From Alphaproteobacteria bacterium (lineage in GTDB: Bacteria; Pseudomonadota; Alphaproteobacteria; Caulobacterales; Aquidulcibacteraceae): DNA of 33,102 bases. The DNA is taken from positions 1 through 33,102 of the forward strand of contig JAGWZH010000025.1 of assembly GCA_018971945.1 (NCBI GenBank). The letters run 5' to 3'. Below are positions 25,033 to 31,035 of the stretch, one piece after another (position 1 is the stretch's first letter; every line of letters begins with the position of its first letter). Position numbers and translations under genes: made by a program. Below the pieces are notes generated by a model. It saw only the letters and a list, made by a program, of their open reading frames with translations, searched no databases and was not told the DNA's origin.

Positions 25033-27009
25033 ATGAACATCGTCATATTGGGCGGGATCCTGATTACGGTCCTGACGCTCATCCCGGTCCTGGGCCAGTT
25101 GCGCCAGCATCCGAAGGGCCTTGTGGTCTTGTTTTTCGCTGAGATGTGGGAGCGGTTTTCCTATTACGGAATGCGAGGCATTCTGATTTTCTATTTGACG
25201 CAGCACTTCCTTTATTCAGACGGCTTCGCCAACGGGATGTACGGGGCCTATACCTCCCTCGTTTACCTTTTGCCGCTGATTGGCGGCTTTATCGCCGATA
25301 AATACCTGGGGACACGCAAAGCGATCGCTTTTGGCGCTTTGCTCTTGGTCGGCGGCCACCTCCTGATGGCGGTGGAGCAGGAGCCTGCTCGCCAGACCCT
25401 GACCTATCAGGGCCAAACCTATGAATTTGCGTCCGAAGGCCGGATGGAGCGCCGCGAAGTTGACCTGATCGTGGGCGGTGAGCGCTATGCTTTTGAGGGG
25501 GCGACGCAAACCAACGCCGCGGGCGAAGAGGTCAATGGTCTGGCGATCAGCGGCCTCCCCGCCGATGCAGGCCTTCCTGCCTTCCTCCCCGAAGGCGCCT
25601 ATAAACTGGGCGTTGAGGGCCGCCAGCCGCTCTTTGAAGGCGTGATGCTTTTTGCACTTGCCCTGATTGCTGCTGGCGTCGGCTTCCTGAAGCCCAATAT
25701 CTCAACCATCGTCGGCCAGCTTTACCCGGGCGACGACCCCCGTCGGGACTCCGGCTTCACCCTCTATTATTACGGCATTAATCTGGGGGCGTTCTGGGCG
25801 TCGATTCTCTGCGCTTGGCTTGGGCTTGAGATCGGCTGGTGGGCGGGCTTCGGCCTCGCCGGCATCGGCATGGCCCTAGGCTTTATTGTCTTTGTCCTCG
25901 GCAAGCCGCTCTTGGAAGGCAACGGCGAGCCCCCTGCGCCGGAGCGCCTGAAAGAGAAAGGGCTTTTCGGCCTCAGCAAGGAGAACACGATCTATCTGCT
26001 GGGCGTCTTGGGCGTGATCGCGGTGTTCGGCGTGTTCCAGGCCAATGCGGCCGTTCGCTCCGCCATCGATGGCGCGATCAGCGCCCATCAGGCCGCCAGC
26101 GGGGTGGGGGCGTCTTTGCCGCTGGGATTGGCGCTGGCGGACTTTTTCGTCGTTGTCGGCGTCTTGCTGGTGATCGGGTCGGTTTTGGTGCTGGGCTATA
26201 TTTTCCGGTTCATGTCCGCCCGCTGCGCCAAACAGGAAAGCGACCGACTTCTTCTGGCTCTGATCCTGATCGCCGCCTCGGTGGTCTTCTGGACACTGTT
26301 TGAGCAGGCGGGAACCTCTTTGAACCAGTTCGCCGAACGGTCCACAGACCTGACCGTGATGGCGCAGCCTTTGCAGCTGGGGCCGTTCTTTATCGGGACG
26401 CCAGAGCAGCTGGCCGTGGCCGGCTTCCCCGCCGGCCAATCGCCTATTTTCATCGACGCCGGCTTCGCCGCGGGGCAAGCCCAAAGCTTCAATTCGGGCT
26501 TCATCTTGATCTTCGCCCCGCTTTTCGCAGGCCTTTGGGCTTGGTTGGAAAGGCGCAAGCTGGATCCCAACGACCCGATGAAGTTCGCTCTTGCCTTGAT
26601 TCAGGTGGGGGCGGGGTTCCTGGTTTTGGTGGTCGGAGCCACGATGGCGGGTTCTGACTACAAAGTCCCGCTGATGTTTTTGGCCTTGGCCTATCTGCTC
26701 CACACCACGGGCGAATTGTTCCTGAGCCCTGTGGGCCTGTCCATGGTGACCAAGCTCTCGCCGTCGGCGGTGGTTTCAACCATGATGGCCGTCTGGTTTC
26801 TGTCCTCTGCCTGGGCGCAGTGGATCGGCGCGATCATCGCCGCTCAGACGGGAGCAGAGACCATTGGCGGCAGGGTTCTCAATCCCGCGCAGGCCCTGGC
26901 CACCTATGTGGAGGTGTTCCAGTCCATCGGCCTATTCGCCATCGGCGTCGGCGTAGCGCTTGCGGTCTTAAGTCCTTTTCTGCACAGGCTTTCCCACGGG
27001 TCTCGCTGA
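25033..27009 (+). CDS. POT/PTR-family proton-coupled peptide transporter with periplasmic insert
   Basis: Encodes 658 residues and should import di-/tripeptides with protons. The ExxERFxYY proton motif is clear at 37-45 (EMWERFSYY), and the PTR2 signature reads LYYYGINLGAF near 245. Two features are unusual. First, an extra hydrophobic helix (residues 2-21, IVILGGILITVLTLIPVLG) precedes canonical helix 1. Second, a hydrophilic, beta-rich insert lies between helices 3 and 4 (about 116-199, TLTYQGQTYEF to EGAYKLGVEG), on the periplasmic side by the usual POT topology. Later helices and KLSPSAVVSTMMAVWFLSS are normal. The gene is alone, divergent from the outer-membrane barrel, which could supply peptides to the periplasm. 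Confidence 0.92.
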   Translation: MNIVILGGILITVLTLIPVLGQLRQHPKGLVVLFFAEMWERFSYYGMRGILIFYLTQHFLYSDGFANGMYGAYTSLVYLLPLIGGFIADKYLGTRKAIAFGALLLVGGHLLMAVEQEPARQTLTYQGQTYEFASEGRMERREVDLIVGGERYAFEGATQTNAAGEEVNGLAISGLPADAGLPAFLPEGAYKLGVEGRQPLFEGVMLFALALIAAGVGFLKPNISTIVGQLYPGDDPRRDSGFTLYYYGINLGAFWASILCAWLGLEIGWWAGFGLAGIGMALGFIVFVLGKPLLEGNGEPPAPERLKEKGLFGLSKENTIYLLGVLGVIAVFGVFQANAAVRSAIDGAISAHQAASGVGASLPLGLALADFFVVVGVLLVIGSVLVLGYIFRFMSARCAKQESDRLLLALILIAASVVFWTLFEQAGTSLNQFAERSTDLTVMAQPLQLGPFFIGTPEQLAVAGFPAGQSPIFIDAGFAAGQAQSFNSGFILIFAPLFAGLWAWLERRKLDPNDPMKFALALIQVGAGFLVLVVGATMAGSDYKVPLMFLALAYLLHTTGELFLSPVGLSMVTKLSPSAVVSTMMAVWFLSSAWAQWIGAIIAAQTGAETIGGRVLNPAQALATYVEVFQSIGLFAIGVGVALAVLSPFLHRLSHGSR

Positions 27010-27408
27010 CCCGGGGCGGCGCCCTCAAGAGGGTCTTCTGGGGCTCTTTGACGCTCTCTTGTAAGGTGAGCCGCACCCTTGTGACGGGACTTGCGGAAAA
27101 GCCTGCAAACGAGGGGTGTGGGCGGTGGCTTTCCCATCTTTGGGGCCCGACAAGGAAGACGCGCCGCTCGACGTCCGGGACATCGTGGTCTTATGATGAG
27201 GTCCTGGCGTCGGGGGGCGGCAAGAACGGGCGGTGGCGAAAGCCGGGGCCTCATGGACATGGTGTGCAGTGACCGCCTCTGGCGCGCGAGCGGGTTTCGG
27301 CCTGCCTGTGGCGCCATGAAGCCTCGATTGCGCATGGTGTGGCCTTGATCCGACCCTACATGATGGATGGGTTGCGGTGTCGCGACCGCATCGGCGAAGG
27401 AGTGATTG
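27010..27408. other. 399-bp region between the peptide transporter and the VirD4-like gene
   Basis: No convincing gene on either strand. A short frame beginning with GTG at 27125 (VAFPSLGPDKEDAPLDVRD) stops after 23 codons. A longer one (27091-27348) is arginine-rich and not protein-like. A good ribosome site (AAGGAG, 27397-27402) lies at the right end. I see no clear terminator for the transporter gene. Confidence 0.4.
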
Positions 27409-28842
27409 ATGCCGCGGAAGACCTCTCCCCTTCGGCCCCCCGCAAAGCCTGCGGCGGCCCCCGTGGCGGGATTGGAGCTGCTTCTGGGCTGGCGCGATGG
27501 GGAAGAGCCAAAGGCCCCCATGGGGTTTTCTTCGGCGTCCCAAACCCGGAGCGCGGCGCCCAAGCCCGCCCCCCGCGAGCCTTTGCTGTATGGCGAGGAC
27601 CGCCATTTGGTGACCATCGCCCCGACGGGCGCGGGCAAAGGCAGGGGGGTGATCATTCCAAACCTTTTGCGCTTTGAGGGCTCGGTCATCGTCATCGACC
27701 CCAAGGGCGAGACCTGGCACGTCACCCACCGTCGTCGGATGGAGATGGGTCAGGAGGTGCGGCTGCTCGATCCTTTTGGCGCCGTTTCCAGACGCACCGA
27801 CAGCTTGAACCCGTTTGACCTTTTCGACCGGCCTGGGGCGCTTTTGGACGCCGACGCCGAGATGTTGGCTTCCCTTCTCGCGGGGGATCAGGGTTTCCAT
27901 AAGGAGCCCTTTTGGGACAATTGGGGTCGGTCCTTAATGTCGGGGGTTGTTGCTGCGGTCGCCCAAACCGCTCCGCCTGAGCAACGGCATTTCGGCCGCG
28001 TCCGCGAAATTCTGATGAGCGACGACGCGGTCTATAACCTGGCGACAATCATTGAAAATCATGACGATCTGAACAGGCTTTCGAAGCAGAATATTTCGAG
28101 TTTCTTGCCTATAACAGAACAGACGAGATCGGGTATTTTATCTACGACCCAGAGTTATTTAAAGGTCGTGAATTCTGACTCAGCATTGCGATCACTGTCG
28201 AAATCAACCATTAGCCTTGAGGCGGTCCGCAAAGGAGATCCGATCACGATTTATATCGTGTTGCCGCCTGACAAGCTCGAAAGTCATGGGGCGTTGCTGC
28301 GTCTTTGGGTCGGAGCCCTCATGCTCACCGTCATGGGCCGCAAGCGCCGGCCCAAGCGCTCAACATTGTTTCTTCTCGACGAGTGCGCGCAATTGGGGGA
28401 GTTCGGCCCCTTGCGGCAGTCGATGACGCTTTTGCGTGGCTATGGTCTGCAGGTATGGCCTTTCTTCCAGGACCTGTCCCAGCTTCAGAGGCTTTATCCG
28501 AACGATTGGCGGACGATCTTCAACAACGCCGGCGTGTTCCAGCTTTTCGGGGTCGCCAATCATTTGATGGCGAAGGAGAGCAGCGATCTGATCGGCGACA
28601 TCGACGCCGACAGTCTCCGGGCCATGCCGGCGGACAAGCAGGTGATCGCGATGAGCGGGACCAAGGCCTTGCACGCGCGCCTGCCAGATTATCTGCAGGA
28701 CGCGGCTTTTCAGGGGATGTGGGATCCAAACCCGATGTTTGACAGCATTGATGAGACGGACGTTCCGGCGAAAACAAAGTCCAAGGCGAGGCGCAAGACC
28801 CAAGCGCGCCGCGGCAAGAAGGCGACGATCCCGGCCCGGTGA
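27409..28842 (+). CDS. VirD4/TraG-like coupling ATPase lacking a membrane anchor
   Basis: Encodes 477 residues. The ATG at 27409 follows AAGGAG by six bases. It carries the type IV coupling protein core: Walker A (APTGAGKGRG, residues 71-80, with the GKG variant normal for TraG), VIVIDPKGETW, and Walker B with D324/E325 (LFLLDECAQLG). Later come FGPLRQSMTLLRGYGLQVW and MSGTKALHARLPDYL. Full VirD4/TraG proteins have one or more N-terminal TM helices. Here the first 58 residues are Pro/Ala-rich and hydrophilic, so the protein looks soluble. No relaxase, virB or mobilisation gene is nearby. The C-terminus is very basic (KTKSKARRKTQARRGKK). A 120-bp stretch (residues about 225-264) is only 42% GC. 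A role in moving DNA or protein is inferred from the family. Confidence 0.85.
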   Translation: MPRKTSPLRPPAKPAAAPVAGLELLLGWRDGEEPKAPMGFSSASQTRSAAPKPAPREPLLYGEDRHLVTIAPTGAGKGRGVIIPNLLRFEGSVIVIDPKGETWHVTHRRRMEMGQEVRLLDPFGAVSRRTDSLNPFDLFDRPGALLDADAEMLASLLAGDQGFHKEPFWDNWGRSLMSGVVAAVAQTAPPEQRHFGRVREILMSDDAVYNLATIIENHDDLNRLSKQNISSFLPITEQTRSGILSTTQSYLKVVNSDSALRSLSKSTISLEAVRKGDPITIYIVLPPDKLESHGALLRLWVGALMLTVMGRKRRPKRSTLFLLDECAQLGEFGPLRQSMTLLRGYGLQVWPFFQDLSQLQRLYPNDWRTIFNNAGVFQLFGVANHLMAKESSDLIGDIDADSLRAMPADKQVIAMSGTKALHARLPDYLQDAAFQGMWDPNPMFDSIDETDVPAKTKSKARRKTQARRGKKATIPAR

Positions 28843-28950
28843 GGGCGAGGCCCCGGCGGCTCGCTGCATGAACGGAAGTGGGATTCTGGAGAGGACAAGG
28901 TCATTGGCGAGGGGAGGCGGAAGGCCGCGCGCTGCGGGCTGGCCCAAGCG

Positions 28951-29035
28951 CCCAGAGAGCGCGCCCAGAGAGCGCGCCCAGAAGAGAGCGCGCCCAGAAG
29001 AGAGCGCGCCCACAGAGCGGGGCCCACAGAGCGGG
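28951..29035 (+). repeat. Tandem repeat array 1, units of 13-16 bp
   Basis: Six consecutive units all start with CCCA: two of CCCAGAGAGCGCG (28951-28976), two of CCCAGAAGAGAGCGCG (28977-29008), then CCCACAGAGCGGGG and CCCACAGAGCGGG. Units come in pairs that differ from the next pair, as if duplicated stepwise. No spacers separate them. Confidence 0.92.
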
Positions 29036-29051
29036 CCCAGGGTGCGGATCC

Positions 29052-29126
29052 AGAGGGTTTGGCCAGAGGGTTTGGCCAGAGGGTTTGGCCAGAGGGTTTG
29101 GCCAGAGGGTTTGGCCAGAGGGTGGC
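29052..29126 (+). repeat. Tandem repeat array 2, 13-bp unit, five exact copies
   Basis: AGAGGGTTTGGCC is repeated exactly five times (29052-29116) with a degenerate sixth copy (AGAGGGTGGC). Perfect identity suggests recent expansion or active copy-number change. A 13-bp unit would shift frame with each copy, so the array is unlikely to be coding. Confidence 0.95.
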
Positions 29127-29153
29127 CCCCAGAGCGCGCCTGATTTGACGCAT

Positions 29154-29172
29154 CCAAAGGGCGGCCCTTTGG
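29154..29172. repeat. Palindrome CCAAAGGGC-G-GCCCTTTGG
   Basis: Nine-base arms are separated by a single base, about 27 bp right of the minisatellite. As RNA it would need a larger loop. There is no T-tract. It may be a protein-binding site or part of the end of the minus-strand transcript from the YdcH-like gene. Confidence 0.6.
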
Positions 29173-29278
29173 CGTGTTGGGGGCTTGGGGGCTCCGCCGA
29201 GCGTCTGAACGCGTCCACATGCGTGATCGTGCGCGTAGTCAGGTCGCGTGGCTTCGGCCGGAGAAGGCGGAAACCGGC

Positions 29279-29527
29279 CTAGCCCTGCTCCGCCTTGGCC
29301 AGCATCGCAGCGATCTCGTCAAGAACCGAGAGTCGTTGCTTCTCCAGGGCCTCCAGCGCCGCGTCCTCGGCGGGCCGAATATCTTTTTGTATCTGTTGGA
29401 TTTCCTTCCATAAATGGTGGTTTTTTTCCAACAAGTTTGCGAAATGGGCGCTTTCGCCGGCCACGCGACGGATCAGGTCGGCTTTGCCAGGAAACTCTTC
29501 TGCGAGGTCATGGGATAAAGCGGTCAT
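29279..29527 (-). CDS. YdcH/DUF465-family small protein
   Basis: An 82-residue, highly charged helical protein. It has the DUF465 pattern: HDLAEEFPGKADLIRRV, then SAHFANLLEKNHHLWKEIQQ, and a second helix EALEKQRLSVLDEIAAMLAK. These are typically short cytoplasmic coiled-coil hairpins. No biochemical role is well established. Part of the gene is locally AT-rich (a poly-T run around 29423-29430), unlike its neighbours. It is upstream of the repeat region, reading toward it, and 86 bases downstream of tldD on the same strand. Confidence 0.8.
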   Translation of the reverse strand: MTALSHDLAEEFPGKADLIRRVAGESAHFANLLEKNHHLWKEIQQIQKDIRPAEDAALEALEKQRLSVLDEIAAMLAKAEQG

Positions 29528-29613
29528 CGAGTTCCTCGTTGAGTATGACGCTCAGGAAATGGCTTGCGCCGAAGGCGTCTGCGAACGGGTCGAAAGCCGC
29601 AGGCTGATCAGCC

Positions 29614-31035
29614 TCACCCGGCGCCGCCCACGGTCAATCCTTTGATATAGAGCGTCGGCTGACCCACTCCGACGGGCACGCTTTGCCCCGCTTTGCCGCA
29701 GGTTCCGACCCCGTCGTCCAGCTTGGAATCGTCGCCGACCATGGTGATCCGGGTGAGCGCTGAGGGGCCGTCTCCAATGAGGGTGGCGTTTTTCACGGGC
29801 GCTTTGATCTTGCCCTTTTCCACCAGGTAGGCCTCGGTGCACTGGAACACGAACTTGCCGCTTGTGATGTCGACCTGACCGCCGCCGAAATTGACAGCGT
29901 AGAGCCCTTTTTTGAGGCTCGCGATGATCTCTTCGGGGTTTTTGTCTCCACTAAGCATGGAGGTGTTGGTCATGCGCGGCATGGGCTGATGGGCGTAGCT
30001 TTCGCGCCTTCCATTGCCGGTGGCCTTCACGCCCATGAGGCGGGCGTTCATTCGGTCCTGCAGATAGGCTTTCAGGATGCCGTCTTCGATGAGGACCGTC
30101 CGGCCCGTCGGGGTGCCCTCGTCGTCGATGGTCAGGGATCCGCGGCGGTGCATGAGGGTGCCGTCGTCGACGACGGTGACGCCGGGGGCGGCGACTCTCT
30201 GGCCGATCATTCCGGCGAAGGCAGAGCTTCCCTTGCGATTGAAATCGCCTTCCAGCCCATGCCCGACCGCTTCGTGTAACAAAACGCCGGGCCAGCCGGG
30301 GCCCAAAACCACGTCCATCTCGCCAGACGGCGCGGGGATGGCGTCGAGGTTCACAAGCGCGACGCGCAGGGCCTCGTTGGCGAGCGCCTTCCATTGTTTC
30401 GGAGCGATGAAGGCCGCATAGGCGCGCCGTCCGCCAGCGCCGGCCGAGCCGGTTTCCCGTCGTCCGTCGCGCTCCACGGTGACGCTCACATTGATCCGCA
30501 CCAGAGGCCTCGCGTCGTCATAGCGGGCGCCGTCCGGGCGAAGGATCGCCACCTCCCGCCGGCTGCTGGCCAGCGACACGCTGACTTGCGCCACGCGGGG
30601 GTCTTTGGCGCGGACATAGGCGTCGATCTCAGCGAGAAGCGCGGTTTTATCGGTGAAAGCCGGCGCGCTGAGAGGGTCAAGATCGGCGTAGCGGTGACGA
30701 TTGGTCCGCCGCGGCGCGACCGCCAGGGTCCCAGCGTGGCCCCTTTTGGCGGCGCTGGCCGCGTCTGCGGCCCGATCGATCGCGCCGTCGTCGAGCAGGG
30801 AAGCATGGGCGTAACCAGTGGTTTCCCCGCACACGACCCGCATGCCGAAGCCCTGCGTCGCGTCGTAGCTGGCCGATTTGAGCCGTCCATCGTCCCAGAG
30901 AAAGCTTTCTGAGGCGCTGTTCTCCACGAACACTTCGCCGTCCTCGGCGCCCCGCGTGGCTTCCGCCAAACGCTTGTGCGCCTTGGTCCAATTGAAGTCC
31001 ATGGCGGCCATTGCTCCGCCCGCGCCGTCGGCCAT
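29614..31035 (-). CDS. tldD: TldD zinc metalloprotease
   Basis: Encodes 473 residues. TldD pairs with TldE/PmbA to form a hollow protease that cleaves unfolded peptides, and is known for microcin B17 and CcdA processing. The zinc motif HEAVGH is at residues 254-259, followed by LEGDFNRKGSSAFAG. The third ligand region (GTCGKAGQSVPVGVGQP) is intact near the C-terminus. The start at 31035 is chosen; internal ATGs at 31011 and 31002 are possible and might suit the family better, since residues 1-11 are extra. The tldE partner is not in the window. In alphaproteobacteria tldD commonly lies next to the cox operon, as here, though two TPR genes intervene. Confidence 0.94.
   Translation of the reverse strand: MADGAGGAMAAMDFNWTKAHKRLAEATRGAEDGEVFVENSASESFLWDDGRLKSASYDATQGFGMRVVCGETTGYAHASLLDDGAIDRAADAASAAKRGHAGTLAVAPRRTNRHRYADLDPLSAPAFTDKTALLAEIDAYVRAKDPRVAQVSVSLASSRREVAILRPDGARYDDARPLVRINVSVTVERDGRRETGSAGAGGRRAYAAFIAPKQWKALANEALRVALVNLDAIPAPSGEMDVVLGPGWPGVLLHEAVGHGLEGDFNRKGSSAFAGMIGQRVAAPGVTVVDDGTLMHRRGSLTIDDEGTPTGRTVLIEDGILKAYLQDRMNARLMGVKATGNGRRESYAHQPMPRMTNTSMLSGDKNPEEIIASLKKGLYAVNFGGGQVDITSGKFVFQCTEAYLVEKGKIKAPVKNATLIGDGPSALTRITMVGDDSKLDDGVGTCGKAGQSVPVGVGQPTLYIKGLTVGGAG

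Follow-up and report, generated by a model that had tools for sequence, protein, structure and literature searches.

An anchorless VirD4-like ATPase retained as a core chromosomal gene in one clade of Caulobacterales

Introduction

VirD4-type coupling proteins, such as TrwB of plasmid R388, VirD4 itself and Cag-beta, are built from a nucleotide-binding domain carrying Walker motifs and an all-alpha domain, and typically possess an N-terminal transmembrane domain. They are regarded as parts of conjugation or secretion machines, and VirD4 proteins handle protein substrates too. Members without a transmembrane domain are known, as noted in a review (PMC7434980); among them is TraJ of pIP501, which lacks an anchor, is part of a plasmid T4SS and is treated in that review together with TraI. 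The same source states that, in TraD, interaction of the cytosolic domains depends on the anchor (PMC7434980), and it has been put forward elsewhere that domestication may often turn conjugative systems into systems of protein transport (PMC3158045). Ring ATPases of the same superfamily can also act without a classical T4SS, as HerA does and as is described for TdtA of Thermus in DNA donation (PMC5365140). Our literature search, judged on titles and the openings of abstracts, returned no recognised description of an orphan, domesticated, soluble or Caulobacterales VirD4 like the protein reported here.

The gene in question lies in a stretch of 33,102 nucleotides from an alphaproteobacterium of the Aquidulcibacteraceae (Caulobacterales), referred to below as the window. 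Its product has the nucleotide-binding domain, all-alpha domain and Walker motifs of TrwB, VirD4 and Cag-beta, and differs from them in having no anchor and no cognate relaxase or T4SS nearby, and in being kept as a core gene. It resembles TraJ in lacking an anchor, but its core loci hold neither a T4SS nor a small membrane-protein neighbour. A likeness to TdtA and HerA also exists, although the core clade, unlike HerA, has no recognised nuclease partner.

Results

A VirD4-type ATPase core without a membrane anchor

The frame is open from an ATG start on the plus strand and encodes 477 residues. The features of the locus, in window coordinates, are as follows.

25033 to 27009, plus strand: POT-family peptide transporter, the conserved and much faster evolving upstream neighbour (profile match; 31/33 loci)
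27010 to 27408, no strand: intergenic region between the transporter and the ATPase gene, expected to hold the latter's own promoter; without a TM-like frame
27409 to 28842, plus strand: anchorless VirD4-like ATPase gene, 477 aa (open reading frame, Pfam, Walker motifs; model pLDDT 85.5, pTM 0.83)
27409 to 27474, plus strand: basic, low-confidence N-tail, residues 1-22, in place of the VirD4 membrane anchor (net +4; pLDDT ~50)
27619 to 27642, plus strand: Walker A, residues 71-78, APTGAGKG, in which G74 is a signature of the anchorless clade
27811 to 28233, plus strand: helical insertion, residues ~135-275, equivalent to the all-alpha domain of coupling proteins (model helices; TrwB alignment spanning 17-443; PF10412)
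28366 to 28383, plus strand: Walker B, residues 320-325, LFLLDE, invariant in 20 orthologues
28435 to 28437, plus strand: R343, aligned with a TrwB arginine and a signature of the anchorless clade (TrwB alignment; clade residue counts)
28741 to 28839, plus strand: basic, low-confidence C-tail, residues 445-477 (net +7; poorly conserved among orthologues; pLDDT ~45)

Pfam matched the protein to T4SS-DNA_transf (PF02534, 5.3e-58) over residues 62-398, corresponding to positions 42-385 of the 468 in the profile, and also to TraG-D_C (PF12696, 3.7e-18) and TrwB_AAD_bind (PF10412, 2.6e-14); in NCBIfam nine VirD4/TraG-type models were matched, every one below its curated cut-off. The PF02534 nucleotide-binding core with both Walker motifs, the all-alpha insertion and the C-terminal part of the ATPase core are all present, and Walker A, like Walker B, was invariant in 20 orthologues, in agreement with the first-pass annotation of this DNA, which had called the ATPase core intact. 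The TrwB residue aligned with R343 is presumably the arginine finger.

An AlphaFold model built from 26 diverse rows, which replaced a run on 20 close orthologues (pLDDT 43), was of low confidence only at the first ~20 residues, residues ~37-49 and the last 30. The model superposed on TrwB lacking its anchor with Z 31.5 over 359 residues, on Cag-beta with Z 28.6, on the C-domain of DndH with Z 26.1 over 324 residues, on VirB4 with Z 25.6 and on HerA with Z of ~18-21, and by sequence the nearest solved relatives were Cag-beta (the nearest) and TrwB. Despite the likeness in fold to DndH, no Dnd genes were recognised beside the window gene and PADLOC gave no Dnd match. HerA was compared by structure alignment in place of a separate HerA profile: the alignments started at chain residue ~105-158, and with the P-loop as early as residue 71 a HerA N-terminal domain could hardly be accommodated.

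The highest 19-residue Kyte-Doolittle mean over the whole protein was 1.24, indicating that it has no membrane segment, while anchored relatives measured in the same way reached 1.7 to 3.0 ahead of the ATPase core. The N-terminal transmembrane domain of the VirD4 type is thus missing, as had been proposed, and all full-length copies among 34 close loci lack it too. A split anchor gene beside the ATPase gene was ruled out, because no TM-like stop-to-stop stretch was found on either strand of the flanks (27000-27420 and 28830-29640). Directly downstream of the gene are two short tandem arrays of 13-base units (28948-29040 and 29050-29123), and an 82-aa frame on the minus strand (29279-29527) encodes what we take to be a YdcH/DUF465-like protein.

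In place of the anchor there is a basic N-tail, with a net charge of +3 to +7 in 20/20 orthologues; from the model, its residues 1-22 are probably disordered. The C-tail ranged from -3 to +7 across the same 20 proteins, at zero or below in three, with the window protein carrying the strongest charge (+7). The conserved charged feature is therefore the N-tail, the basic C-tail being less consistent, and the earlier suggestion that a basic C-terminus points to contact with nucleic acid describes the window protein correctly but is weak as an argument, since the feature is weakly shared. The core itself has a net charge of -5 to +1 in these orthologues, and in the window protein the all-alpha region has one of -4. 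These charges bear on the substrate. A soluble motor that unfolds or remodels proteins or RNA-protein complexes, and not DNA, would accord with a core that is not basic, with the handling of protein substrates by VirD4 proteins and with the nearest solved relative by sequence, Cag-beta, which comes from a protein-injecting system. We nevertheless consider such a motor unlikely, in view of the basic N-tail in every orthologue and of the DNA motors that make up much of the remaining fold list, though fold shows no function.

A housekeeping neighbourhood

A scan of genome contigs returned 39 loci, 34 of which (L034-L067) were 73-87% identical over the best segment, the other five being distant. 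Contig ends truncate two of the 34 (L060 and L064), and one (L066) is out of frame; across 20 aligned copies, mean column identity was 80%. The neighbourhoods of homologues of the same length were then compared, using 35 loci including the window. The POT transporter lies directly upstream on the same strand in 31/33 loci with enough flank, at a distance of 133-403 bp (median 272 bp in the 31 loci), a gap which suggests that the ATPase gene has its own promoter. Further upstream, gshA or rsmE occurs within 8 kb in 28/29 loci with flank, and TldD lies downstream within 6.5 kb in 18/25 loci with room. RsmE, GCS2 (gshA), TldD and POT were named by profile matches on the window copies; the labels GNAT, TonB-like, SMC, CoxA/B/C, UbiA, MutY, RluD and SLOG are our presumptive ones, given from reading the sequences alone.

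Neither a LexA box nor a full CtrA box was found in 33 upstream regions. A GANTC site (CcrM-type methylation) is present in 25/33 of them, often ~41-46 bases before the start, as a raw count without a background control.

Two origins were considered and rejected. The gene is not a recent remnant of a mobile element, given the proximity of gshA or rsmE in 28/29 loci and the existence of a 55% identical copy beside rsmE and gshA in a genome of another family (G718), and it is not a phage gene, as phage records hold only matches of at most 32% identity.

Retention and constraint across Caulobacterales

Retention was scanned in 398 Caulobacterales genomes at a match threshold of E 1e-70. Matches were found in 64, of which 41 belong to the family of the window (f1) and 23 to families f2-f4. 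In the carrying genera of f1 (g1, g2, g3, g5, g8-g12 and g14), all 31 genomes at least 90% complete have the gene, with identities mostly of 72-87%, as do 10/13 of the less complete ones, the three misses being 83, 65 and 57% complete; in the 83% complete genome (G025), TldD and POT were likewise without a match. None of 16 genomes from the sister genera g4, g6, g7 and g13 has the gene. Two genomes (G002 and G004) hold copies of 54-55% identity at other places, where the POT transporter does not adjoin, and the copy of G001 is cut by contig ends. In one carrier, titled Terricaulis sp. (G588; L066/L172), the orthologue is broken into two frames, and either a sequencing error or genuine gene loss could account for this. 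Terricaulis has been placed in the proposed Aquidulcibacteraceae (PMC12700997), with which f1 is therefore probably identical.

In a tree of TldD the sister genera form a group apart from the carriers (support 100/99), and, with weak support, the f2/f3 outgroups and long branches are interspersed with the carriers. Phylogeny and distribution make one gain in the f1 carriers likely, short of proof because of the position of these outgroups.

The ATPase is strongly constrained. On the same locus pairs its median identity was 87.2%, versus 82.2% for GshA, and it was more conserved than GshA, RsmE, POT, UbiA and CoxB, equal to TldD and below CoxA; compared with POT on shared pairs, the medians were 84.5% and 47.7%, respectively. 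Median dN/dS was 0.143 for the ATPase, 0.133 for GshA, 0.121 for TldD, 0.128 for CoxA, 0.196 for RsmE and 0.472 for POT, values that are comparative only, because dS is near saturation. The gene is under purifying selection and changes as slowly as the neighbouring housekeeping genes, and it is a strongly conserved chromosomal core gene of its clade rather than a decayed orphan. The word orphan in the first-pass annotation misleads, because the gene is core to its clade and has many anchorless relatives.

Independence from T4SS genes

Among most of the larger ORFs of the window, searched with Pfam and NCBIfam, no relaxase or secretion gene was seen, and none of the 35 core loci compared had a recognisable T4SS cluster next to the gene. 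Neither observation that would have overturned the first-pass reading, a split anchor gene close by or a complete T4SS adjoining the gene in relatives, was made. The wider genome is a different matter. Contig C217 of the window's genome encodes VirB4, VirB10 and an anchored VirD4, and contig C45 a second anchored TraG-like protein together with a weak relaxase match. Because of these matches on other contigs, it is the window gene, and not its genome, that lacks a T4SS, and the absence of relaxase and virB genes holds beside the gene but not genome-wide.

In a set of 61 genomes, VirB4 (PF03135) was present in 15/21 f1 carriers and in 13/16 f1 non-carriers. Six carriers lack it (G002, G007, G013, G017, G021 and G032); VirB10 is absent from G002, G007, G017 and G021 and present in G013 and G032. 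Matches to PF03432 occur in G002, G013, G021 and G032, and no match to three relaxase families was found in G017, a single contig, or in G007, which is 85% complete. Most genomes are draft assemblies, so that not all of these absences are safe.

This distribution bears on whether the protein acts in trans as the coupling protein of T4SSs, resident or visiting, and of mobile elements, held at the membrane by a partner in the way of TraJ with TraI of pIP501. It belongs to the coupling-protein family, anchorless coupling proteins are documented (PMC7434980), a multi-pass membrane transporter is encoded immediately upstream, and most carriers, the window's genome included, have VirB4. Such a role is nonetheless improbable: VirB4-less carriers keep the gene intact, one of them (G017) being without VirB4, VirB10 and the three relaxase families, the presence of a T4SS does not follow the gene, resident T4SSs possess an anchored VirD4 of their own, and in G002 and G004 the transporter does not adjoin the gene. 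With its housekeeping neighbourhood, no T4SS beside the core gene and carriers devoid of VirB4, the locus supports the earlier proposal of a soluble, chromosomal motor independent of a T4SS.

A wider anchorless clade and a partner domain

Anchorless relatives were found in f1-f4, in another family of the class (G323), on Sinorhizobium plasmids (38.7-40% identity) and on a Runella plasmid (33%). In a 53-row tree, 34 anchorless rows formed one clade (99/95) apart from 16 anchored rows. Three short or low-hydropathy rows (L208, L023 and L024) fell outside it, and anchors may therefore have been lost more than once in the superfamily. L208 (3851-5242) is a 464-aa anchorless VirD4-like protein on a viral contig. 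Two residues mark the clade: G74 occurs in 34/34 anchorless rows, versus R in 15/16 of the anchored coupling proteins sampled, and R343 in 34/34, versus A in 14/16. Further residues of the anchorless clade are S292, H293, R311, F352 and D355.

The clade has two branches, one comprising the core gene and other solitary copies, including that of G718. In the second, ten copies (L159-L163, L168, L169, L173, L077 and L078) have a common gene directly upstream, mostly overlapping or within ~180 bases. It encodes a domain of ~245 aa, sometimes with a longer N-terminal part, for which the copies scanned (part of the ten) gave no Pfam or PADLOC match; the domain occurs in 19/398 Caulobacterales genomes and is absent from that of the window.

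The partner domain was also seen within proteins of 800-1280 aa (L195 4854-8078, L196 2-2443, L197 2-3091, L198 5811-9332 and L199 8244-12080), which have repeats that look pentapeptide-like and C-terminal hydrophobic helices, and in L201 (2875-6984 and 8229-9071) a CHAT-domain protein lies near a protein with the domain. Among other anchorless copies, one on an S. meliloti plasmid is near a DUF4062/NB-ARC-like/TPR protein, and two are followed by a 1400-aa P-loop protein, one of them with McrBC next on. On the Runella plasmid pSP2_1 (Bacteroidota; L174 4188-14152) the anchorless gene has small unknown genes around it, along with two caspase-family genes and a TPR gene.

Associations with such proteins, and the occurrence of an undescribed domain in a two-gene unit at ten loci, would suit the motor of an anti-phage or conflict system, like HerA in HerA-Sir2 and HerA-DUF4297. 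For the window gene this role is decidedly improbable: its clade has no effector partner, every well-assembled genome of that clade has the gene, and it changes very slowly, unlike typical defence genes. The sole PADLOC match of the window protein was a weak one to mad8 (20.4 bits), well apart from a strong match to a defence model.

Discussion

Our preferred explanation, to which we give about an even chance, is a domesticated, soluble, ring-forming motor derived from VirD4 that would handle nucleic acid independently of secretion. A cytosolic ring motor of the VirD4 family, made of the nucleotide-binding and all-alpha domains, would have had its membrane anchor replaced by a short basic tail, and its gene would have become a fixed part of the chromosome in the ancestor shared by one half of the window's family, with vertical inheritance as a core gene from then on. 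The protein would most likely form a hexameric ring around nucleic acid and use ATP to move along or remodel it in the cytosol, in the manner of HerA or FtsK; its action would be independent of secretion systems and might lie in some form of chromosome or plasmid handling.

What the data show directly is the anatomy, the predicted fold, the missing anchor, the retention, the purifying selection and the occurrence in genomes without detected VirB4; the single fixation, the hexamer, the nucleic-acid substrate and the cellular task are inferences. A domesticated motor with a cellular role is suggested because the ATPase and all-alpha domains are retained, the constraint is strong, the gene is held throughout its clade and T4SS genes are dispensable to its presence; another job inside the cell is probable since the gene is kept even where no conjugation machinery was detected. 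Nucleic acid is the preferred substrate on account of the family, the fold and the constant basic N-tail. Against this, the net charges of the core and the all-alpha region are near neutral or negative, and the anatomy would also suit a motor that handles proteins. The core clade yielded no conserved partner, and one may be needed for ring formation, because TraD cytosolic domains reportedly fail to interact once the anchor is missing (PMC7434980). A further point against the reading is the Terricaulis carrier with its gene split between frames.

A wider reading, possible but doubtful, is that a separate family of cytosolic ring motors arose from a VirD4 protein which lost its anchor. One of its branches would have become an important chromosomal housekeeping core gene, and the other would drive an undescribed system of two genes, with a new partner domain and a possible part in cellular conflict; the family would then parallel HerA, with an origin in VirD4 and no connection to secretion.

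Proteins of this type are viewed as components of conjugation and secretion, and here one is kept lineage-wide, also in genomes where no T4SS was detected. Its slow rate of change matches that of glutathione and respiratory genes, and a short tail takes the place of the anchor on which most coupling proteins depend. Should its role lie on the chromosome, it would show how a conjugation motor can enter core cell biology.
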